IMG/VR virus record: IMGVR_UViG_3300029987_000017
Span: 1-39,384 of that record
DNA length: 39,384 nt
Strand: one strand, 5' to 3'
DNA from: a virus
The notes under the pieces were generated by a model. That model was given only the letters and a program-made list of their open reading frames with translations. It did no database searches and was not told where the DNA came from. Numbering within the stretch: the stretch's first letter is position 1; each line of letters starts with the position of its first letter. The position numbers and the translations under genes were made by a program. Positions 1,183 to 39,384 of this stretch are shown piece by piece.

Positions 1183-1941
1183 ATGAACAGTACACAATTA
1201 GGAAAAGCAAAAGTATTTTTTACAAAAGGTGATTTTGGCAAAATGCTAAAGTTGAAAGACATTGATAATCTATACATAGGAGAAATTAAAAAGAGTCAAT
1301 ATGGAGACGAAACTATCGAAGTGGAAATAATTACATCAATGGACAATGTTACAAATAATAGAGTTAAAACTATATTTAATAATGATATAAGAATTAGTTA
1401 TAGTAGTGATATTCCAAGTGGTAAGAATTATTATTTATCTTTTGATGTATCTAGAGAAGGAACAAATTATGGAGTATTATTCGAAGAGAACAACAATTCA
1501 GAATTAAAAATAATTAGATTTATTAAAATTACTGGAAATAAGTTAGAAGATATTGCTGATAAATTGATAGAATCAATAAAAGGAATTGATAATTGTAAAA
1601 TTATTATACCAACTATAAATATAGGTCAAGCAGTTGTAGATTATCTTCAAGAAAAAGGATTTGCTAATATTGTTGAATTAGATTTAGATGATATGAGATA
1701 TATAGCTGTTAACAATGCAAAACTTATCAATGATAAAGACACATTATTTAAATTAATTCCAAACAATTGTTCAAGTGATGATATGATTGAATTTATAAAA
1801 ACATCTAGAGAACTGGATAATACAGATATTGATGTAACATGTGATGGAAGACTTAGATTTAAAAGAAAATCAATGGAAGTTACAAGTACAAGAATATGTG
1901 CAGTATTTTATGCTTTAAGTAAATTAGGGTACAAATTATAA
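1183..1941 (+). CDS. Terminase large-subunit nuclease-domain-like protein
   Basis: The C-terminal ~170 residues resemble the RNase H-like nuclease domain of phage large terminases: a first strand ending in Asp (YYLSFDVSREG, about residues 86-96), a strand plus glycine segment (IIIPTINIGQAVVDYL), and a closing helix (TRICAVFYALSKLGYKL). It is a clear paralogue of the C-terminus of the protein at 35408, which shares IIIP, GQ, the EGF/KGF segment, ELDL and the LGYKL end. The strand-2 acid expected in active terminase nucleases appears to be replaced by proline, and the usual Asp near the C-terminal helix is not evident, so it may be catalytically dead. There is no ATPase domain. A hairpin and a 23-nt repeat shared with 38209-38231 follow it. 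The fold call is moderate; activity is unknown. Confidence 0.5.
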   Translation: MNSTQLGKAKVFFTKGDFGKMLKLKDIDNLYIGEIKKSQYGDETIEVEIITSMDNVTNNRVKTIFNNDIRISYSSDIPSGKNYYLSFDVSREGTNYGVLFEENNNSELKIIRFIKITGNKLEDIADKLIESIKGIDNCKIIIPTINIGQAVVDYLQEKGFANIVELDLDDMRYIAVNNAKLINDKDTLFKLIPNNCSSDDMIEFIKTSRELDNTDIDVTCDGRLRFKRKSMEVTSTRICAVFYALSKLGYKL

Positions 1942-1967: not shown

Positions 1968-2003
1968 GGGAAGTATAATTGCTTCCCTTAAATTTGAAAA
2001 TAA
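1968..2003 (+). repeat. Hairpin and 23-nt direct repeat, copy 1
   Basis: GGGAAG (1968-1973) pairs with CTTCCC (1982-1987) around an 8-base loop. Positions 1981-2003, which start with GCTTCCCTTAAATTTG, are identical to 38209-38231, where a hairpin also forms. The hairpin could be a weak terminator for the terminase-like gene. The identical arm and tail 36 kb away indicate a duplicated junction. Confidence 0.65.
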
Positions 2004-2050
2004 TTAACTTTATATGGTTTGGCAATAAATTAATAGAAGAAGGTGCAGAC

Positions 2051-3466
2051 ATGAAAATAGGGAATTTAGAAGTGTATGGGATTATATACAGAATAACAAA
2101 TATTGTTAATGGCAAAGTTTATATTGGACAAACCGCACAAGAAGGTGGTTTTTATAAAAGATATAATTACAAAGGTACAGGAATTGAAAGAGTATATAAT
2201 TACCATAAAGGTAGATTAAAAAGAAAATTAGACGCAAATAAACATTTATTAAGTTCTATAAAAACACATGGATTTAAAGCTTTTGAAATAGTAGAAGTAT
2301 TTGATATTGCTTTTTCCCAAGAAGAATTAAATATCAAAGAGCAATGTTGGATTTCTTATTATGATTCTGATAATAGGAAATATGGATACAATAAAAATAT
2401 TGGCGGTGGAAGTGGTTGTGGATTTCAACATACTGAGGAATCTAAAAATAAAAATAGAATATCTAAATTGGAAGTATCTTTACCTGTTATATGTGTTAAC
2501 ACAAATGAAACCTTTTTATCACTTAAACAAGCTGGTAAAAAATATAATATAGACAGAAAAACAATTAGTTTAGCATGTAAAGGAGAATATAGATATGCAG
2601 GATTAAATCCAATTACAGGTGAAAAAATGGTATGGATGTACTTAAATGATTATACAATACATAAAGCGGAAGAACGAATGGAAGATATAGAACTAAATGT
2701 ACAATTTAAAAAGGTAGTTTGTCTTAACAATAGAAAAATATTTTTAAGTATAGGTGATGCCAATACCTATTGTGGTTTTAGAAAAGACAGTGGAACGATA
2801 GGAAAATGTTGCAGGGGATTACAATCAACATCGGGTAGATTTCCTGATGGAACAAGATTGATTTGGGCTTATTATGAAGATTATATACATATGACAGATA
2901 TAGATATTCAAAATAAAATAAATAGTATTAAAAAAATGAATATAGAAAATTATATTAAAAAAGAAGTTAAGAAAAAAGTGATTTGTACAACATTTAATAT
3001 TGTTTTTAATTCTATCGCAGGAGCTGGGAAATTTTATCATATAGATAATGCTCATATAGGAAATTGTTGTCAAGGGAAACAAAAATATAGTGGAAAACTA
3101 TTTGATGGAACAAAATTACAATGGAAATACATAGAAGATTTAACTCCTGAAGAATACATAAAATATGATATAGAAAACAAATTAAAAGAATTGTATAATC
3201 AAGATTATACATATGATTCAAAAACAATTGTATATTGTAAAGAAAAATATGTTTGCGTTACTACAAATAAAAAATTTAATACGATTAAAGAAGCAGGAGA
3301 ATATTACAAAATAATATCTTATAGACATATAAACTCATGTTGTAATGGAACAAGAATTTATTGTGGTAAATTAGAAGATGGAACACCTTTGAAATGGAAA
3401 TATTCTGATGAATACATAAAACAAAAAGAATTATTACATAATGAAAATTTAGGACAAGCAATTTAA
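2051..3466 (+). CDS. GIY-YIG homing-type endonuclease with four NUMOD1-like repeats
   Basis: Residues 8-26 carry the GIY-YIG signature (GIIYRI and VYIGQT), so this is a divalent-metal endonuclease of the free-standing or intron-encoded homing class. The C-terminal two thirds contain four copies of a ~55-residue DNA-binding repeat. Each has a Cys-x-(N/T) strand, a phrase like F-S-I-x-x-A-G-x-Y, a Cys-Cys or Ala-Cys turn, and a closing W-x-Y-x-x-(D/E)-(Y/L). ATG 2051 is chosen because AGAAGGTG precedes it by 6 bases; the longer upstream frame has no ribosome-binding site and runs through the hairpin repeat. At 471 residues it is long for the class because of the four repeats. It sits directly after a terminase-like gene, a common homing target. 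Confidence 0.9.
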   Translation: MKIGNLEVYGIIYRITNIVNGKVYIGQTAQEGGFYKRYNYKGTGIERVYNYHKGRLKRKLDANKHLLSSIKTHGFKAFEIVEVFDIAFSQEELNIKEQCWISYYDSDNRKYGYNKNIGGGSGCGFQHTEESKNKNRISKLEVSLPVICVNTNETFLSLKQAGKKYNIDRKTISLACKGEYRYAGLNPITGEKMVWMYLNDYTIHKAEERMEDIELNVQFKKVVCLNNRKIFLSIGDANTYCGFRKDSGTIGKCCRGLQSTSGRFPDGTRLIWAYYEDYIHMTDIDIQNKINSIKKMNIENYIKKEVKKKVICTTFNIVFNSIAGAGKFYHIDNAHIGNCCQGKQKYSGKLFDGTKLQWKYIEDLTPEEYIKYDIENKLKELYNQDYTYDSKTIVYCKEKYVCVTTNKKFNTIKEAGEYYKIISYRHINSCCNGTRIYCGKLEDGTPLKWKYSDEYIKQKELLHNENLGQAI

Positions 3467-4363: not shown

Positions 4364-4411
4364 ACATGCTATAAGAATGATAATAAATTAATATAAACAG
4401 TATTAATAAAT

Positions 4412-4871: not shown

Positions 4872-4972
4872 TTTTAATTTTCGCTAAAATCCAAATAAAA
4901 TTTGCATTTTAAGTTGATATTTATTTTCAATTAGCAAAATGTAAATAATTAAATAAATTAATAGAATTACTA

Positions 4973-5001: not shown

Positions 5002-5042
5002 TAGTTTAGACAAACAAATTAATATAAAAAGGAGAGATTAAA

Positions 5043-10690: not shown

Positions 10691-10739
10691 AAAGTTAATT
10701 TGATTGGGTTTTAATAAATTAATAAAAGGAGAGATTGAA

Positions 10740-13353: not shown

Positions 13354-13875
13354 ATGTTAACAATTGAACTTAGAACTATGGATATGGACGAGGTAATAGA
13401 GCTTTGGGAGACAGATAAGCAAAAACTAAAAATAAAATTATTAGACGATTATGAAGATTTGGTAAAAGAGTATAGGGAGCAAACTAAAATTTATACCCAA
13501 GAAAGTACTCAAGGTTCTGAAATATTCCTTAAATATCGCACTTTTACGAAAATCAATTATCAACTCGAATTAGATATTGACGAGAGAATAAGAGGTACAA
13601 TTAAATTTACGAATGATTTCAAAGAAAACATAAAAATAGCTTTAGAAGTTAATGAAGGAATGAGACATGAAAGATTAGCAACAAGATCACTTCAATTAAA
13701 AGAAATTATAAGCTTAAAAGCACATGAAATTGAAAAAACATTAAAATTATTAGGCGTTAAAGTAAAATATGATAAAGATTTTTCATTAAAAGCAGACGAA
13801 TGGTTACATGAAGACTTGCTGGAACTTAGAATACAAAAAATTGAAGATAATAAAGATTCTAATGATGAAAATTAG
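13354..13875 (+). CDS. Hypothetical helical protein, 173 aa
   Basis: ATG is 8 bases after AGGGAG. The protein is charged and largely helical with no cysteines in pairs, membrane segments or known motifs. Residues 30-60 and 90-130 may coil. It heads a short unit with its own promoter, and its ribosome-binding site can be sequestered by pairing with the promoter region sequence only in the DNA or a longer upstream transcript. No family is recognised. Confidence 0.75.
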   Translation: MLTIELRTMDMDEVIELWETDKQKLKIKLLDDYEDLVKEYREQTKIYTQESTQGSEIFLKYRTFTKINYQLELDIDERIRGTIKFTNDFKENIKIALEVNEGMRHERLATRSLQLKEIISLKAHEIEKTLKLLGVKVKYDKDFSLKADEWLHEDLLELRIQKIEDNKDSNDEN

Positions 13876-14769: not shown

Positions 14770-14818
14770 ATAAGCAAGTAAAAACTATATTTTACCAAAA
14801 TATGTGAGGGAAATAATA

Positions 14819-15028
14819 ATGAAACATATTACAACAATTCAATTAAATGATGGTAAAACAATAACACAAGAAACTGAAGATAAAACTCAAGAAGATTGTA
14901 AGGATTACTGGAAGAATTATATAAAATATTGGGGAAAAGTTCACGGAAATTGGAGTTGTGCAAGAGTGTTGGAAATTGAAGAAAAAAAGGAGTGTAATAA
15001 TGAAAAAGAATTTATGGGTTGTTTATAA
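14819..15028 (+). CDS. Hypothetical protein, 69 aa
   Basis: ATG 14819 follows GTGAGGG by 8 bases; an in-frame GTG at 14804 is part of that site. The product starts MKHITTIQLNDGKTIT and is mixed polar with two C-terminal cysteines. It overlaps the next gene by 29 bases in another frame, so the two are likely translated from one message. Family unknown. Confidence 0.6.
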   Translation: MKHITTIQLNDGKTITQETEDKTQEDCKDYWKNYIKYWGKVHGNWSCARVLEIEEKKECNNEKEFMGCL

Positions 15029-16826: not shown

Positions 16827-16845
16827 GAAGAAAGAAGGGAAATAA

Positions 16846-17094
16846 ATGGATAATAAATTTCCAATACTAGGTTCAAATCCAAAAGAATATATTAAATCGG
16901 ATTTAATAAAACCTCATGAAAACCAAGCACTTATAAATCATAGTCAAACATTAAAAAGGTTAGCAGAACGTGGAGGACTTAGTTGGGCAGAAATGTTATA
17001 TATTTTAAGGGATGAACCTTTTAATTATAGAATACAACTATCTGAAACTGATGCAAGAACTAAGGTATTAGAAATTATCAACTTATATAAGTAA
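16846..17094 (+). CDS. Phage protein, copy 1 of MDNKFPILGS family, 82 aa
   Basis: ATG follows GAAGGGAAATA. Close paralogue of the gene at 33508: identical MDNKFPILGS start, shared NHSQTLKRL, ERGGL and ARTKVLEIINL. The conserved ERGGL segment occurs in widespread phage hypotheticals that precede an alpha-helical tail. The two copies lie about 16.7 kb apart. No function is established. Confidence 0.75.
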   Translation: MDNKFPILGSNPKEYIKSDLIKPHENQALINHSQTLKRLAERGGLSWAEMLYILRDEPFNYRIQLSETDARTKVLEIINLYK

Positions 17095-21516: not shown

Positions 21517-21573
21517 TAAGTAGTACCAAGGAAACAAATTAATAAAATAATAAATGAAAGAAGGAATGTTAAA

Positions 21574-23542: not shown

Positions 23543-23623
23543 AAAAGTTGTTCAAATCTTGATTTTAAAAGAATGCTAATAAATTAATATAAAAAACAAT
23601 GAAATAAAGGAGAATAAATAATT

Positions 23624-27733: not shown

Positions 27734-27846
27734 ATAAAGAATGAGGCTATAAGACACTTTACAGACTTGGACAAGCAAGTAAAATATTAGTTTTATTTGG
27801 TTATTAATAAATTATATTAAACGAATAATGTAAAGGAAGTGAAAAA

Positions 27847-28749
27847 GTGAATGTATTAAGTTTGTTTAATGGAATAAGTTGTGGAAGAGTAGTATTAGAA
27901 AAAGCACAGATTGAAGTAGATAATTATTATTCAAGTGAGATTGATAAAGATGCAATGTTAATAGCTGATAAAAATTATCCACAAGATGTTAAAAATAAAT
28001 TAGGAGACGTTACTGAGTGGAAAAATTGGAACTTGCCCAAAATTGATTTAATATTAGCAGGAAGTCCATGTCAAGGATTTTCAAGAATAGGGAATGGATT
28101 GAATTTTGAACATAAACAAAGTAAATTATTTTTTGAATTTATTAATATCTTGAATTGGATAAAAGAAAATAATAATCCCAATGTTAAATTTTTATTAGAG
28201 AATGTGAAAATGAAACAAGAATGGATTGAGGTAATTAATGACTACATAGGAATTAAAGGTAAGCTTATAAATTCAAATTTATTTTCAGCACAAAATAGAG
28301 AGCGTTATTATTGGACAAACATAGAATACATACAAAATATAAATGATAAAGAAATATACATAGATGATATTATAGAGAAGCAAAAGGTTGAGGAAGGACA
28401 TTATTGCAAAGAGCATCAATTATTACATGCTGATGTTTGTAGAGAAGTCTCATGTAAATGGTCAAAAGGAACTCCTATATATGATTTCTACAATAAGAGT
28501 ATAAAGTATGGTAAATCAAATACTGTAGTTCCTCATTGCTTTAGAAGAGATAGATCAGCACCAAATATAATTAAAGATGATTACGGATTAAGAAGATTCA
28601 CAGAAATTGAGTGTGAAAGGCTACAAGGATTACCAGACAATTACACAAATGTAAAAGGGGTTTCATGTGGTAATAGATATAAAGCCATAGGGAACGGATG
28701 GAATATTGATACAATTGTACATATTATTAAAGAATTAAAAATAAATTAA
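27847..28749 (+). CDS. DNA (cytosine-5) methyltransferase, first of three
   Basis: Transfers methyl from S-adenosylmethionine to C5 of cytosine. Motif I is LFNGISCG, motif IV is GSPCQGFS with catalytic C75, motif VI is ENV at 118-120, and motif VIII is SAQNRERYYW. The target domain is followed by motif IX (RRFTEIECERLQGLP) and motif X (AIGNGWNIDTIV). The DNMT3-like FNGISCG start differs from the usual FSGIG. A GTG start follows AAAGGAAG. It forms a cassette with two more methyltransferases. Target site not predictable by eye. Confidence 0.95.
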   Translation: MNVLSLFNGISCGRVVLEKAQIEVDNYYSSEIDKDAMLIADKNYPQDVKNKLGDVTEWKNWNLPKIDLILAGSPCQGFSRIGNGLNFEHKQSKLFFEFINILNWIKENNNPNVKFLLENVKMKQEWIEVINDYIGIKGKLINSNLFSAQNRERYYWTNIEYIQNINDKEIYIDDIIEKQKVEEGHYCKEHQLLHADVCREVSCKWSKGTPIYDFYNKSIKYGKSNTVVPHCFRRDRSAPNIIKDDYGLRRFTEIECERLQGLPDNYTNVKGVSCGNRYKAIGNGWNIDTIVHIIKELKIN

Positions 28750-29751: not shown

Positions 29752-30705
29752 ATGGAAATAAATATAGTAAGTTTATTCGATGGACACAGTACAGGAAGAT
29801 TAGTATGCCAAAGAGCAGGAATTGATGTGGATAAGTATTATGCAAGTGAGATTGATGAAAATGCAATACATATTAGTAAAAATAACTTTGACGATATAAT
29901 TAGATTAGGTGATATAACTAAAATAGATAAAGAATTAATACAAAGTTTACCCAAGATTGATTTACTTATTGGAGGTTCACCTTGTCAGGGGTTTTCAAAA
30001 AATGGGTTATGTTTAAATTTTGAAGATATTAGAAGTAAATTATTTTTTGATTATGTAAGAGTTTTAGATTTAATTAGAAAATATAATAATCCTAATGTGC
30101 AATTTCTACTTGAAAATGTTGAAATGAAAAAAGAATGGAGGGACGTTATAAGTGATTATTTAAAATGTGAATATACATTGATTAATAGTAAACTTATTTC
30201 AGCACAAAACCGACCACGTTTATATTGGACAAGTACATATATAGAACCGCCAAAAGATAAACGAATTAAATTATTAGACATATTAGAAAAAGTTGATACA
30301 AGCAATTACATAAAATATAAAGGATTATTAATAGATCCTAACATAAGTGAGAAATGCTATAATTTAATAGATGTTGTTAATGGTGAGGTAAGAATAAGGC
30401 AAGCTACTAAGCAAGGGTATATTGTGGCAGAGAATGGAGATGGAGTTAATCTTCAGTTCCCAACAAGTAAGACAAGACGTGGACGAGTTATAAAAGACAA
30501 ATCAAACACCTTAGATTGTAGTTGTGATATATGTGTTTATTATGATGGCATAGTCAGAAAGTTTACTATTACCGAGTTAGAACGACTTCAGACATTACCA
30601 GATGGATATACATATGGATTAAGTGATAAAGCTAGAATAAAAGCTATTGGCAATGGTTGGACTGCTGATGCTATAGTAGATATATTGAAACAATATAAAT
30701 TTTAG
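29752..30705 (+). CDS. DNA (cytosine-5) methyltransferase, third of three
   Basis: It resembles the first enzyme more than the second. Motif I is SLFDGHSTGR, motif IV is GGSPCQGFS with catalytic C78, motif VI is ENV at 121-123, motif VIII is SAQNRPRLYW, motif IX is RKFTITELERLQTLP, and motif X is AIGNGWTADAIV. ATG follows AAGGAGAAAATA. The first and third enzymes may be duplicates with diverged target-recognition parts. Followed by a copy of the 21-nt conserved noncoding element. Confidence 0.95.
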   Translation: MEINIVSLFDGHSTGRLVCQRAGIDVDKYYASEIDENAIHISKNNFDDIIRLGDITKIDKELIQSLPKIDLLIGGSPCQGFSKNGLCLNFEDIRSKLFFDYVRVLDLIRKYNNPNVQFLLENVEMKKEWRDVISDYLKCEYTLINSKLISAQNRPRLYWTSTYIEPPKDKRIKLLDILEKVDTSNYIKYKGLLIDPNISEKCYNLIDVVNGEVRIRQATKQGYIVAENGDGVNLQFPTSKTRRGRVIKDKSNTLDCSCDICVYYDGIVRKFTITELERLQTLPDGYTYGLSDKARIKAIGNGWTADAIVDILKQYKF

Positions 30706-33438: not shown

Positions 33439-33507
33439 GTATAAACTGCCATGACAAGTGGCTTTAAATACCTTGTACACGAGATATATTAGAAAGGGTG
33501 AAGTAAG

Positions 33508-33765
33508 ATGGATAATAAATTTCCAATACTCGGTTCAAAACCGAAAGAGTATATACCATTAGATATAATAAAACTACATGAAAAACAAGCAATTAGAAAT
33601 CATAGTCAAACATTAAAAAGGTTAACAGAACGTGGTGGACTAGGTTGGATTGAAGCTTTGTGTGTTTTAGAAGATAGAGAATATGATTTTCATATTAAAC
33701 TAACCGAAAAGTCTGCAAGAACTAAAGTATTAGAAATTATTAATTTATTAAATTGTGAGGTGTAA
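33508..33765 (+). CDS. Phage protein, copy 2 of MDNKFPILGS family, 85 aa
   Basis: Paralogue of the gene at 16846: MDNKFPILGS, NHSQTLKRL, ERGGL and ARTKVLEII are shared. The C-terminus is extended (LLNCEV). ATG follows AGAAAGGGTGAAGTAAG. It immediately follows the recombinase element, so recombination could have mobilised it, though this is inference. Confidence 0.75.
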   Translation: MDNKFPILGSKPKEYIPLDIIKLHEKQAIRNHSQTLKRLTERGGLGWIEALCVLEDREYDFHIKLTEKSARTKVLEIINLLNCEV

Positions 33766-34991: not shown

Positions 34992-35052
34992 TATACATAA
35001 CCACATAAAAGATGTCTTTTATTGGAAGTTGATAAATTAATATAAATAAGTG

Positions 35053-35081: not shown

Positions 35082-35130
35082 AATCATATACCAACCAATT
35101 AAACAAATTAATAGAAAAGGAGAAATAAAA

Positions 35131-35406
35131 ATGTATAATTATAGTTTGGATTTTAGAATAACAGGTCAAGAGGCTAGAAAAGATATTCAAAGAGATGGAC
35201 TTAAATCAGAAAAAGAGTATTCCTTTGATGAATGGAAGGCTATTGTTAAGGAAGCGATTGAATCTATTGAAGAAAATGAAATGCAGTATATCACAACTAA
35301 TGTAATATTAAGAAAGGTTATAGAATTGCATAATGATTTTAAGCCTATAGATTGGAACGCTAGTATTTTTATTGAAATGGAAGAAAATAATGAAGGAGAA
35401 ATGTAA
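35131..35406 (+). CDS. Hypothetical protein, 91 aa
   Basis: ATG 35131 follows AAAAGGAGAAATAAAA; the in-frame start at 35050 overlaps the -35 box and is rejected. The product (MYNYSLDFRITGQEARKDIQ) is helical and acidic with no cysteines. It is the first gene downstream of a strong promoter and 1 base from the terminase-like gene. No family recognised. Confidence 0.65.
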   Translation: MYNYSLDFRITGQEARKDIQRDGLKSEKEYSFDEWKAIVKEAIESIEENEMQYITTNVILRKVIELHNDFKPIDWNASIFIEMEENNEGEM

Positions 35407-35407
35407 A

Positions 35408-36676
35408 ATGTGTGAAGAATTTAAATTAACAAAATGGTCAGAGGAATTAATTAAAAACAGACTAAAACATCAATGTAAACTAAATGATAATGCACAATTA
35501 AATACAATAATAAGTGTAGTAAATGATATTGTAAAAAACAGAAATCTCTATCACTCTGAAAAAGACTTTCCTAAAAATAGTGACGAATTAGGAAAATTGT
35601 GGTTGTCAGGATATACAAATGGATTAAAGGTAGGTGATAGAGTTCAATTTAAATACATACTAAATGTTGATGGAGCTGAAGATGAAGATATTAAAATGCT
35701 AAGAAGCTGTCAAGATGAATTCGCTATCATAACAGGATTTAAAAATAGAATTAAGGGTGAACTAGCAAAACATGTAACAGTAGATTTTGCTAATGAAGAA
35801 CTAGTTGAATTAAATGATTATCTATTCTTACCTATGCAATTCATTAAAGTAACAAGAGGACTAAGAGCCAAAGCAAATATTATTGATGAAGTTTGTGACA
35901 TAGACAAGATACAAGTGAAAGAAGTTTTGAGTAAATTTGATAAAACTAATGAAAATAATATCTATTTAACTCAAAAAGAAAGAAATGTTATAAGATGTGA
36001 TATTGAAAGAACACTACATAGTTTTGAGAATCAAGTAGATAGTTGTCTTAGAGATAATGAATTACAATTAGCCAAAGTTAATCATAATGTAGTAGATACT
36101 GCTAGAGGTATTTTAGATAAACTTCAATTTGCTGACTATGAGGACTTAGAAAATAGTAAATATTATCTTACTATAGATTTAGATAGACAAGGCGAGAATA
36201 AGGCTATATTATTTCATCAATATGAAAATAAATTAAAGATAGACAAATTTATTGATTTTTATGAAAGAGATTTCACTAAAATTGCAAAAAAGCTAATAAA
36301 TGAAATTAAACCATACAAAAATGGAAAGATAATAATTCCTAATGTTGTATTTGGACAAAATTTAATAGATTTTATAAAAGCTGAAGGATTTGAAGATATT
36401 ATAGAATTGGATTTAAAAGATTTAAACAAATGTAATATATATAATTTAGAATTATTCAATGATAAAAATAAAATATATAATCTATCAGATGTAAATATAG
36501 GAGGAAATGAATATCATACTGGGTTTATTAGATTAAAGAAGCAATTGGACAACCTAGTAATAAAGACAAATACTGAGGGTAGTTCTAGTAGATTTGATAT
36601 GAAAGATAAAGATATAGATAAGTATTGGATTATATGTGTTTTTTATACATTATATAAATTAGGTTACAAATTATAA
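35408..36676 (+). CDS. Protein with terminase-nuclease-like C-terminal domain, 422 aa
   Basis: The last ~170 residues are a paralogue of the protein at 1183 and resemble the RNase H-like nuclease half of a large terminase: YYLTIDLDRQG, the IIIPNVVFGQNLIDFI strand, the ELDL turn and the terminal CVFYTLYKLGYKL. Around residue 158 the phrase TRGLRAKANIIDE recalls the terminase Walker B strand, although a P-loop is not in this protein. The N-terminal 150 residues contain a KOW/SH3-like beta segment (KVGDRVQFKYI, FAIITGFKNR). Nuclease acids other than the first Asp are not clear. Directly followed by a P-loop protein, so the two may make a split terminase. Confidence 0.5.
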   Translation: MCEEFKLTKWSEELIKNRLKHQCKLNDNAQLNTIISVVNDIVKNRNLYHSEKDFPKNSDELGKLWLSGYTNGLKVGDRVQFKYILNVDGAEDEDIKMLRSCQDEFAIITGFKNRIKGELAKHVTVDFANEELVELNDYLFLPMQFIKVTRGLRAKANIIDEVCDIDKIQVKEVLSKFDKTNENNIYLTQKERNVIRCDIERTLHSFENQVDSCLRDNELQLAKVNHNVVDTARGILDKLQFADYEDLENSKYYLTIDLDRQGENKAILFHQYENKLKIDKFIDFYERDFTKIAKKLINEIKPYKNGKIIIPNVVFGQNLIDFIKAEGFEDIIELDLKDLNKCNIYNLELFNDKNKIYNLSDVNIGGNEYHTGFIRLKKQLDNLVIKTNTEGSSSRFDMKDKDIDKYWIICVFYTLYKLGYKL

Positions 36677-36715
36677 AATAAATTAATAGAACAAATAAAA
36701 AGGAGAGATAATAAC

Positions 36716-37756
36716 ATGAAAAAAGAATTAGTATTAAAAGAATGGCAAGCTGACATCATAAAGGATAAATCAAAAATTATTATGGTTAATACAAGTCGTG
36801 GAGGTAGTAAAACTTTTATATTAGCTAATAAAGTAATATATGAAAAGCCTAAAACAGTTTTATACATAAGTGATTATGCAAAACAATTAAATGTTCTAAA
36901 AGAAAATTTTGAAGAAATATTCCATTCAGATGAAACTATATGGAGAACTATTAAAGATTACAATTTTAGTCCAGATGAATTATTTATAAAGTTCATAACT
37001 GGTGAAACAGTAACAGTGTACAATAAGAATTTTGTAACAGACGAAGATGTAGAAATAGATATGGCATTGTTTGATAATGGATTACCACAATTAGACATTA
37101 AGGCTAAAAAGTATATATCTGTATTTACTATCAATTATCCTATAATGAATCTATTTAATAATAGAGGAGATATAAGTTATTATGCAGTAGGATTAGTACA
37201 TTTAGAACGTGGATTGTTTACAAGAGAAAGAATAGAAGGATTAAAAAATGAACTTTCACCATTGGCTTTTATGAAAGATATTGATGTCTGTAATGACTAT
37301 AATATTCTAGAAAAAGAATGGAAATCATTAGATGAATTTAAGAATGTAGAAGATAAACCAATAAGAGGATTAAGAGCAGGGAAATTCATAGAAGAATCTT
37401 GCAACATAAATAATGAAGATATTCAACATAATATTAATAAAATTGATTTTAAAAGTGAAATATTAAAAGAGAAACAAATAATAAATAAAGCAGTAGAAGA
37501 ATATAATTCGGTTATACTAGATAATCTTGATAACATAGAATATCTATTTAAAGATTATCATAAACCAGTCGAAATAAGCTATGATAACGAAGGATATTTA
37601 GAATTAAAAATTATTTTAAAAAATAACAACAATGAATCAAATTACGATTTTAGACACATAAGAAACAGTGGTTATGAAAATATAATAAATGATACAAAAA
37701 ATAAATTAAAAGGGTTTATTACTAGAATTATAGTAGCTAAAAATATAGAAATATAA
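36716..37756 (+). CDS. Terminase-ATPase-like P-loop protein, 346 aa
   Basis: The N-terminus looks like a large-terminase ATPase: the adenine-binding stretch LKEWQADII, then a P-loop NTSRGGSKT (K32, T33) with a Ser before Lys as in some terminases, and KPKTVLYISDYAKQ. Residues 90-140 correspond to the IKFITGETVTV strand and the Walker B-like IDMALFD and VFTIN strands. ERIEGLKNELSPLAFMKDID (171-190) matches a late ATPase motif. The phrase IRGLRAGKFIEES near residue 217 also recalls Walker B. The usual nuclease domain is missing and may be supplied by the upstream gene. ATG follows AAAGGAGAGATAATAAC. Confidence 0.55.
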   Translation: MKKELVLKEWQADIIKDKSKIIMVNTSRGGSKTFILANKVIYEKPKTVLYISDYAKQLNVLKENFEEIFHSDETIWRTIKDYNFSPDELFIKFITGETVTVYNKNFVTDEDVEIDMALFDNGLPQLDIKAKKYISVFTINYPIMNLFNNRGDISYYAVGLVHLERGLFTRERIEGLKNELSPLAFMKDIDVCNDYNILEKEWKSLDEFKNVEDKPIRGLRAGKFIEESCNINNEDIQHNINKIDFKSEILKEKQIINKAVEEYNSVILDNLDNIEYLFKDYHKPVEISYDNEGYLELKIILKNNNNESNYDFRHIRNSGYENIINDTKNKLKGFITRIIVAKNIEI

Positions 37757-37768
37757 AGGAGAATGATT

Positions 37769-38188
37769 ATGACATTAGATAAATGTTTTAGGAAAGAATT
37801 ATGGAGGGTCATAGAAGAATCAAAAAAAGGTACTAATTTTAATTCACAAAAGCAATTCGATAATCTACATACTATCTTAAAGAAAAATTATTCAATAGAT
37901 GATATTGAAATGTTATTACAAGAATTTAATTGTGTAGTTAATGAGTATATTGGTAGTAAAGAATTTAAAGAACTATTTAAAGTAAATGGTGGATTTATTC
38001 AAGAGTCAAAAGATGCAGTATATTTAGATTTTGCAAGCTGGTTAGTTGGACAAGGTATAGAAATATATGACAGATTCTTTAAAAAAGGTAATGAAGTGGT
38101 AGTAGATTATATAAGAGATAATAAAATTAATAGTGAGAACTATGAATATGAGTGTTTAATGTATGCGTTCTTTAATATGAATGCTTAA
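37769..38188 (+). CDS. DUF4240-like protein, 139 aa
   Basis: ATG 37769 is 7 bases after AAGGAG; ATG 37763 is too close. The pattern (helical N-terminus, then YLDFASWLVGQGIEIYDRFF, then VVVDYIRDN) fits DUF4240-type proteins with a W-L-x-x-x-G core. No catalytic residues are known. It lies 12 bases after the terminase-like gene and 21 bases before the repeat hairpin. Confidence 0.5.
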   Translation: MTLDKCFRKELWRVIEESKKGTNFNSQKQFDNLHTILKKNYSIDDIEMLLQEFNCVVNEYIGSKEFKELFKVNGGFIQESKDAVYLDFASWLVGQGIEIYDRFFKKGNEVVVDYIRDNKINSENYEYECLMYAFFNMNA

Positions 38189-38197
38189 TATGACCAT

Positions 38198-38231
38198 GGG
38201 GAGTTTCGGCTTCCCTTAAATTTGAAAATAA
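38198..38231 (+). repeat. Hairpin and 23-nt direct repeat, copy 2
   Basis: GGGGAG pairs with CTTCCC (38210-38215), with one G-U pair. Positions 38209-38231 are identical to 1981-2003, beginning GCTTCCCTTAAATTTG. As with copy 1, an endonuclease gene begins within about 60-70 bases downstream (here 38285). Confidence 0.65.
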
Positions 38232-38284
38232 ATTAAATTGATATAGATTGTGAACAAATTAATATAAGAAAGAAAGTGGAATAT

Positions 38285-39384
38285 ATGAGGAAAGTGTTTT
38301 TAGATGATTTGCCTAAATGGGAAAAACATAAAGGAAAAGGAGGAGGGAGAGATGGAACTATTAATTGGCTAAAATCTATTGGTTATAAAATAAGATTTGT
38401 ATATAATAATATTAAGGGTATAATTAAAATAATTGACTATATTTCTTCAAAAAGTGAATTAAAGATAGAATATAATAATAAATATTTTTATATAGGAATT
38501 GATAAAATTAAAAAATGTCAGTTAGGTAGAATATTAGAAATATACACATCGGAATTTAAAATAGAAATAGGAACAAGATTTCAAGATGATAAAAGAGATA
38601 TTGTAATTACAACAAGAGCAAAATTTAAAGATAAAAATGGACATTGGAGAAAATATTATAAATATAAATGTTATAAATGTAGATTCGAATGTGGAGAAAA
38701 TTGGAGTATAAAAGAAAAAATACATAAAGATGAATTATGGATTTTAGAGAGCGATTTGATAAAAGGTACAAATTGTTCATGTTGTGGAGGTAATAGAATA
38801 GTAGTCAAAGATATAAATTCAATATATTATACTGATAAATGGATTATTTCATATATAGGTGAGGAATGTGCTAAGATACATAAACACGGTAGTAATGAGA
38901 AAGTACAAGTTACTTGTCCTGATTGTGGAAGAGTTAAGGTTAAAAATATGTCTATAGATACTATTTATAATAATCATTCAATAGGATGTTCTTGTGGAGA
39001 CGGATATAGTTATGGTCATAAATATATCTATAAACTTTTAACCCAATTGAATCAAAAATTCATAGATAACCAAACATTTGATTGGTGTAAGTTTTATAAT
39101 ACATATAAACAAAAAGAAGTAAGTGGAGAATATGATTTTGTTTTAGAAAATATAAATTTAATTATAGAAATGGATGGTGGATTTCATAGAAAAGACAATA
39201 ATATGTCAGGACAAACCAAAGAAGAATCTAAATTCTTAGATGATGAAAAAGATAGATTAGCTAGTGAATACGGATATAAGGTTGTAAGGATATCTGATGA
39301 AGGAGATATAAAACAAAATATATTAGATTCTGATTTAAGCAAATTATTTGATATATCCAATATAGATTGGCTAAAATGTGAAGC
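38285..39384 (+). CDS. Zinc-ribbon PD-(D/E)XK-like endonuclease (3' end outside window)
   Basis: ATG follows GAAAGTGGAATAT and opens at least 366 codons to the window edge. The N-terminal region is followed by zinc pairs CYKC, CSCCGG and CPDCGR, then CSCGDG. A nuclease-like core follows: GEYDF with D284, IIEMDGGFHRKD with E295-x-D297, and a YKVVRI strand. This resembles the zinc-ribbon PD-(D/E)XK enzymes that act as free-standing homing endonucleases in phages. It sits after the duplicated hairpin, as the GIY-YIG gene does. Reaction and site unknown. Confidence 0.7.
   Translation, partial: MRKVFLDDLPKWEKHKGKGGGRDGTINWLKSIGYKIRFVYNNIKGIIKIIDYISSKSELKIEYNNKYFYIGIDKIKKCQLGRILEIYTSEFKIEIGTRFQDDKRDIVITTRAKFKDKNGHWRKYYKYKCYKCRFECGENWSIKEKIHKDELWILESDLIKGTNCSCCGGNRIVVKDINSIYYTDKWIISYIGEECAKIHKHGSNEKVQVTCPDCGRVKVKNMSIDTIYNNHSIGCSCGDGYSYGHKYIYKLLTQLNQKFIDNQTFDWCKFYNTYKQKEVSGEYDFVLENINLIIEMDGGFHRKDNNMSGQTKEESKFLDDEKDRLASEYGYKVVRISDEGDIKQNILDSDLSKLFDISNIDWLKCE

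Follow-up and report, generated by a model that had tools for sequence, protein, structure and literature searches.

Promoter-early stem-loops (PeSLs) were reportedly defined in papers by Arbiol in 2010 and Comeau in 2014. Two accounts describe them as stem-loops with promoters through which genes are shuffled in T4-like phages (PMC4503421, PMC3950731). A PeSL has a stem-loop and a promoter-like sequence in intergenic space, flanking genes that are shuffled around the stem-loop, and many copies; a related motif is present in the haloarchaeal virus HGTV-1. A second precedent is found in PMC2988022, according to which T4 endonuclease genes are accompanied by hairpins, terminators and late promoters; segB and mobE of T4 and seg43 of Aeromonas phage 25 have a hairpin and a promoter-like signal before a free-standing endonuclease, with the hairpin sequestering the ribosome-binding site or lying in the gene. 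How expression signals come along with free-standing endonuclease genes is not settled outside T4.

The cassette described here was found in an IMG/VR virus record of 39,384 bases (G+C content, 25.7%), the whole of which was analysed and is referred to as the window. As in PeSLs, its stem-loop is intergenic and has different genes on both sides in different relatives, and a putative promoter lies beside it; unlike them, it is present in one or two copies per record, has a different promoter-like motif and is carried by uncultured AT-rich phages. Because it is PeSL-like in its anatomy and swapped neighbours but has few copies, we have not filed it as a member of that group. It differs from the described segB, mobE and seg43 hairpins in lying ~45-65 nt upstream of the start codon and in recurring before two nuclease families and once without a nuclease. 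With intrinsic terminators, it has in common a G+C-rich stem and a four-base loop, whereas its U-tract is interrupted and its 3'-side sequence is invariant.

An identical repeat at two hairpins

The sequence GCTTCCCTTAAATTTGAAAATAA occurs exactly twice in the window, and no extra site appeared when three mismatches were allowed. Dinucleotide shuffles gave an expectation of 0.02 matches, and 0 of 100 shuffles had two, so that the identity of the two sites, first pointed out in the initial annotation, is beyond chance. Eight 23-mers occur twice in the window, GCTTCCCTTAAATTTGAAAATAA being the only one outside coding paralogues at 16.8/33.5 kb. Each copy opens with the 3' arm of a hairpin, which bears out the hairpin linkage claimed for both, and then runs on as TTAAATTTGAAAATAA. 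The repeat is the core of a longer module (hairpin and leader, ~85 nt) that ends at the next start codon. Nuclease genes had been placed about 50 bases behind the repeats, and the gaps are indeed 47 nt at site 1 (ATG at 2051) and 53 nt at site 2 (ATG at 38285). The features of the two sites are as follows.

1968..1987, + strand: hairpin of site 1, 8 bp, loop TAAT (GGGAAGTA-TAAT-TGCTTCCC)
1981..2003, + strand: 23-nt repeat, copy 1 (3' arm and tail)
2004..2050, + strand: leader to the nuclease start codon, site 1, with AAATTAATAGAA at 2027-2038
38198..38215, + strand: hairpin of site 2, 7 bp, loop TTCG (GGGGAGT-TTCG-GCTTCCC)
38209..38231, + strand: 23-nt repeat, copy 2
38232..38284, + strand: leader to the nuclease start codon, site 2, with TTGATATAGATT and AAATTAATATAA at 38256-38267

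Genes around the two sites

1183..1941, + strand: 252-aa ORF preceding site 1, with weak terminase-nuclease likeness
2051..3466, + strand: GIY-YIG homing-type endonuclease gene, 471 aa (PHROG homing-endonuclease families)
35390..36676, + strand: 428-aa ORF, C-terminal part homologous to the 252-aa ORF
36716..37756, + strand: 346-aa ORF, weakly terminase-ATPase-like, with a Walker-A-like stretch by eye
37763..38188, + strand: DUF4240 gene (Pfam), directly upstream of site 2
38285..39384, + strand: PD-(D/E)XK (DUF559-like) homing-type endonuclease gene, truncated by the end of the window

Site 1 lies between the 252-aa ORF and the GIY-YIG ORF and site 2 between the DUF4240 gene and the PD-(D/E)XK ORF, and the two sites thus precede endonuclease genes of different families, as had been noted. 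The GIY-YIG ORF matched no Pfam family at E 0.01; the PD-(D/E)XK ORF matched Pfam DUF559 (E 7.9e-5) as well as PHROG homing endonuclease families, and its product is 523 aa long in record G005. A position downstream of terminase-like genes, also claimed for both repeats, holds directly for site 1, whereas at site 2 the terminase-like ORFs precede the DUF4240 gene, which intervenes. The terminase likeness is itself weak, since none of these ORFs matched Pfam or PHROG at E 0.01 and the best stretch in a seven-protein search reached E 0.0012 against three sibling-phage large terminases, a marginal value in a search that gave unrelated proteins E values of 0.067 and above. The idea that these genes are pieces of the phage's own terminase was rejected because separate large terminases of ~600 aa are present in 3 of 7 records, including G001 and G006. 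The 252-aa and 428-aa ORFs are homologous (38% over 180 aa), and the presence of such homologues upstream at both loci fits an old duplication of the region; the 252-aa ORF has no relative in 50,697 phage records. Elsewhere in the window, positions 16829-17086 and 33491-33748 are coding paralogues with 76% DNA identity, as are, in a second pair with the same identity, positions 27845-27956 and 29756-29867.

Copies in other phages

An exact 20-mer scan of IMG/VR returned five contigs and a relaxed 17-base scan returned 18 stretches; both used exact patterns only and may have missed more diverged copies. A profile built on five copies scored 7 of the 18 stretches clearly, namely, those five contigs, L083 and L086. 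With identical DNA counted once, there are six distinct copies in IMG/VR phage records: W1 (site 1; also in G003 and G004), W2 (site 2; also in G005), G1, G2, G5 (or G5a, the second copy in G005) and G6 (L086). By profile and pattern, G001, G002 and G006 have one copy each and G005 and the window two, although the records may be incomplete; the sequence is therefore not one that recurs many times per record in the manner of an ordinary terminator, which had been named as the outcome that would speak against a special role. G005 carries both loci in one 84-kb record. The G6 hairpin (L086:1031-1070, in a record of 116,623 bp) has no endonuclease gene beside it, and the cassette hence also exists without such genes.

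W1, G1, G2 and G5 are in the same neighbourhood and have a small upstream gene in common, and G6 has other upstream genes in common with G1, G2 and G5. W2, with its identical copy in G005, represents a second locus, whose ORFs of 428, 346 and 141 aa resemble ORFs of W1/G5, G2 and G1.

A stem was found in 8 of 43 stretches examined, comprising seven copies of the described records and the viral contig L092. This contig looks unrelated; its 9-bp hairpin, which stands before a non-endonuclease gene, ends with the same letters (profile E, 0.0039), but the leader is missing and the base composition differs by eye. It is likely a look-alike and was left out of the six copies. Among 25 GTDB stretches with an 18-base pattern, none had a stem of at least 6 bp ending in that CTTCCC, and bacterial copies were rejected. 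Chance was taken to explain a 21-base hit (E 0.3) in Bacillus phage Mater, within its portal gene, and 14 weak hits to phages.

A conserved module with exchanged neighbours

Over the 21 aligned columns that run from the G closing the 3' arm (GCTTCCCTT) through GAAAAT (TTGAAAAT), the six copies agree in 20, and the loops vary (TAAT, TTCG, TACA, TTAG) while the 7- to 8-bp stems stay paired. Coding potential in the stretch labelled Box B was rejected by eye, as the loop lengths shift the frame between copies. When the five endonuclease-linked copies are compared pairwise, the module up to the next start codon is 79.0 to 92.9% identical in all 10 comparisons. The 150 nt to its left are 59.3 to 68.7% identical in 9 of 10 pairs, the exception being W1/G5 (86.2%), which have the same 252-aa ORF; the 150 nt to its right are 60.4 to 68.5% identical in 7 of 10 pairs, with W2/G1 (70.8%), W2/G2 (74.8%) and G2/G5 (91.3%, a common 109-aa ORF) as exceptions. 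For comparison, shuffled 300-nt sequence from one pair only gave a mean of 64.1% and a maximum of 68.5% in 50 trials, a noise level at or close to which most of the flanks lie. The module is sharply bounded by its hairpin and a start codon.

In the pair G5 and G2, the block that opens with the hairpin and closes with the 109-aa ORF is 90.4% identical over 417 nt between G005 and G002, and the 300 nt on either side of this block are 63.3 and 67.8% identical. The stop codon of the 109-aa ORF and the ATG of the next gene overlap; that gene is of the GIY-YIG type in G005 and of the PD-(D/E)XK type in G002. The ORF has no relative in 50,697 phage records. Its coordinates (92% identity) are as follows.

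L052:3001-3330: 109-aa ORF
L053:3001-3330: 109-aa ORF

This block with unrelated flanks is, on sequence comparison, the best evidence that the module has moved as a unit, and a neighbourhood comparison showed that the genes on both sides of the module differ between relatives. The initial annotation had proposed duplication or recombination at the repeat, and this stands in part: the 417-nt block indicates that the surroundings recombined at the module in relatives, and the upstream homologues are compatible with duplication, as discussed above.

Promoter-like motif, hairpin tail and interpretation

The leader contains the motif AAATTAATANAA, which occurs 12 times in the window, always on the coding strand, where 1.64 occurrences were expected.

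Sites 1 to 6: 201-212, 2027-2038, 4385-4396, 4955-4966, 5016-5027, 10716-10727
Sites 7 to 12: 21536-21547, 23581-23592, 35034-35045, 35105-35116, 36680-36691, 38256-38267

Across the window and four sibling records, it was found at 228 places, with a wider conserved core, and 143 of these have a ribosome-binding-site-like start within ~90 nt, often at 20-40 nt, a distance for which there is no control. From this phage-wide, oriented occurrence, we infer that the leader's motif (AATAAATTAATA) is promoter-like. No conserved second block accompanies it at the 228 places, and sigma-70-like pairs were no commoner than in shuffles. A search for the RNA polymerase beta family, as distinct from single-subunit polymerases, found none in 7 of 7 records. 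A direct-repeat/complement rule general to AATAAATTAA places was rejected (15 of 1,127, versus 12.0 in shuffles).

With roughly even confidence, we read the module as a PeSL-like cassette, composed of a stem-loop and a promoter, that sits where transcription units meet and modules recombine, with endonucleases as the commonest cargo seen. The stem-loop would close the upstream transcription unit or cap its RNA, ending or slowing transcription, and would be followed within ~45 nt by the promoter-like motif and then by the ribosome-binding region of the next gene. Homologous recombination through the conserved stretch could then exchange upstream genes, the 109-aa ORF and the two endonuclease families, and endonuclease genes would gain a ready-made expression signal from the cassette. 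Against this reading stand the T-poor tail, a weak terminator at best by the counts given below, the invariance of that tail beyond what termination demands, the ordinary frequency of sigma-70-like pairs, and the absence of a second block at the motif and of a beta family in the records. A general shuffling cassette would also predict many copies and not one or two per record. Given the swapped neighbours on both sides and the endonuclease-free copy, cassette-guided module exchange becomes testable in another phage group.

A simpler account, to which we give distinctly less weight and which we regard as rather unlikely, is that of an ordinary intrinsic terminator of the terminase-like cluster, kept by descent and in a duplicate, behind which endonucleases were inserted. 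Both window hairpins are stable and G+C-rich and pass a terminator scan, the common neighbourhood of W1, G1, G2 and G5 and the upstream genes of G6 are what descent would leave, and in the apparently unrelated L092 a hairpin with the same tail letters precedes a non-endonuclease gene. The tail (TTAAATTT), however, is a poor, interrupted U-tract with 5 T in 8. In five records, hairpins with 6-7 T of 8 after the stem were enriched (25 of 124, versus 5 of 124 in reversed sequence), whereas those with 5 T hardly were (14 versus 10), so that this tail would make a weak terminator. In addition, the 3' arm and tail do not vary among the six copies despite changed loops and neighbours, which exceeds the needs of termination, and conservation extends across the leader as far as the start codon, beyond what a terminator calls for.

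Still less probable, in our view quite unlikely, is a cis-regulatory RNA in which GUUUUUAAA of an upstream box pairs with UUUGAAAAU behind the hairpin and closes a larger structure. The box, AAAATCTCGTTTTTAAA...ACAAGTA, precedes the hairpin in G5, G6 and G1; in G1 the two are separated by a DUF4240-like gene.

L042 near 3859, - strand: upstream box
L037 near 5881: upstream box
L105 near 5607: upstream box

Its presence in three records (G005, G006 and G001, exactly those returned by a tighter pattern) and the minimum-energy fold of L086, which forms the pairing with GGAG, speak for such an RNA; the larger structure predicted in G006 also covers the ribosome-binding site. Against it, the box is missing at W1, W2 and G2, the pairing is absent from the G005 fold, both strands are invariant and show no covariation, and the folds are no better than shuffles for L086 and G005 (z, -0.36 and -0.67) and only slightly better at the window sites (-1.36 and -1.77). 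A relaxed box pattern found 27 stretches, of which only that of G005 has the full box followed by the hairpin. There was no Rfam match, and the window sites do not belong to the sibling leader RNA family described below (model R2 with filters off: E 2 at 38196-38236 and E 7.3 at 1997-2033).

Relation of the cassette to endonuclease genes

Five of the six copies precede a homing-type endonuclease ORF (GIY-YIG or PD-(D/E)XK), two of them via the 109-aa ORF; the endonuclease-type ORF behind G1 is broken into pieces in its record. Viewed from the endonucleases, 25 endonuclease-like ORF starts were examined in six records, and 3 of them have the hairpin no more than 130 nt away, or 5 of 25 when starts reached through the 109-aa ORF are counted. 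Among 54 non-redundant leaders of PD-(D/E)XK relatives, drawn from 80 of 103 endonuclease relatives, only that of L149, whose DNA is identical to site 2, has the hairpin directly; leaders were taken from the first in-frame ATG, which is probably mis-set in some, for example, L155, L169 and L182. The link to endonucleases is thus real at this locus but is not general to these endonucleases.

The suggestion that the endonucleases use the repeat as an insertion, homing or operator site, a recognition-like sequence marking their entry, is not supported and is, in our view, the least probable of the readings: five of six copies precede an endonuclease of one of two families, an endonuclease-free copy exists, and I-TevI is reported to bind a homing-site-like operator over its own promoter (PMC2988022), but free-standing endonucleases in that account cut hundreds to thousands of bp from their own gene, same-family endonucleases in the same records are mostly without the sequence, two unrelated nuclease folds would need one common site, and the right flank of the endonuclease-free L086 copy is without a match. 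L086 matches the endonuclease loci on its left side and is unrelated on its right, and a clean empty-site pair was not found. The best reading is that endonucleases use the cassette rather than define it.

A three-way-junction leader RNA in sibling phages

Many endonuclease leaders of sibling phages contain a different structure, an outer stem with two hairpins, often present twice. The loop of hairpin 1 in most cases holds a six-base palindrome, and that of hairpin 2 shows complementarity to a stretch farther downstream, at the ribosome-binding site or close to it. For this analysis, 53 of the 54 non-redundant leaders were examined, one of <90 nt being dropped. In a structure search, a score of at least 60 was reached by 18 of the 62 leaders but by none of the 248 shuffled sequences; the palindromic loop is present in 14 of the 18, versus 1 of 9 shuffled matches of any score, and a few of the 18 (L207, L175, L191 and L188) look like chance.

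An initial covariance model, R1, captured a single helix and was set aside. Model R2, built from seven sequences, was run on 91 sources totalling 1.10 Mb and gave 20 matches at E 0.05, of which 13 are outside the seven training loci, two of these being identical. In 19 distinct rows, which include the training rows and were fitted by the model, 92.9% of cells pair and two-sided changes number 105; neither figure was attained in any of 500 shuffles, and sliding the partner reduces pairing to 44-52%. The locations are as follows.

L111:10472-10567; L033:11633-11727, - strand; L014:11542-11634; L015:2829-2923: leader RNA
L016 ~13560-13682; L027:4102-4191, - strand; L112:10817-10918 and 14803-14892: leader RNA
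L117:5730-5838; L118:553-631: leader RNA
Leaders of L159, L173, L176, L183, L189, L193 and L222: leader RNA

The genes behind this RNA include PD-(D/E)XK and GIY-YIG types, a fragmented HNH gene (Pfam HNH, E 2.4e-6) and, in G002, a 555-aa ORF that matched no Pfam family and looks primase-like only by eye. At the leader RNA places, Rfam returned no match in the two sets of stretches searched, and literature listings on endonuclease leader RNAs held nothing matching. The structure is a candidate new RNA family and, being strongly covarying, a second and more striking candidate for keeping endonuclease genes in check. In the window, the model found no convincing match (best E, 0.25).

Side by side, the leader RNA and the hairpin/promoter cassette raise the tentative and rather doubtful idea that free-standing endonuclease genes of this phage group spread as cargo behind interchangeable 5' regulatory modules of either kind. 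If this were true, the 5' module and not the nuclease would be the conserved recombining unit, and unrelated nucleases would drop into the same regulated slot.

Two described RNAs were also observed in sibling phages, namely, the Rfam skipping-rope RNA at L015:5591-5669 (E 2.2e-12) and the Rfam drum RNA at L111:4753-4863 (E 8.8e-8).
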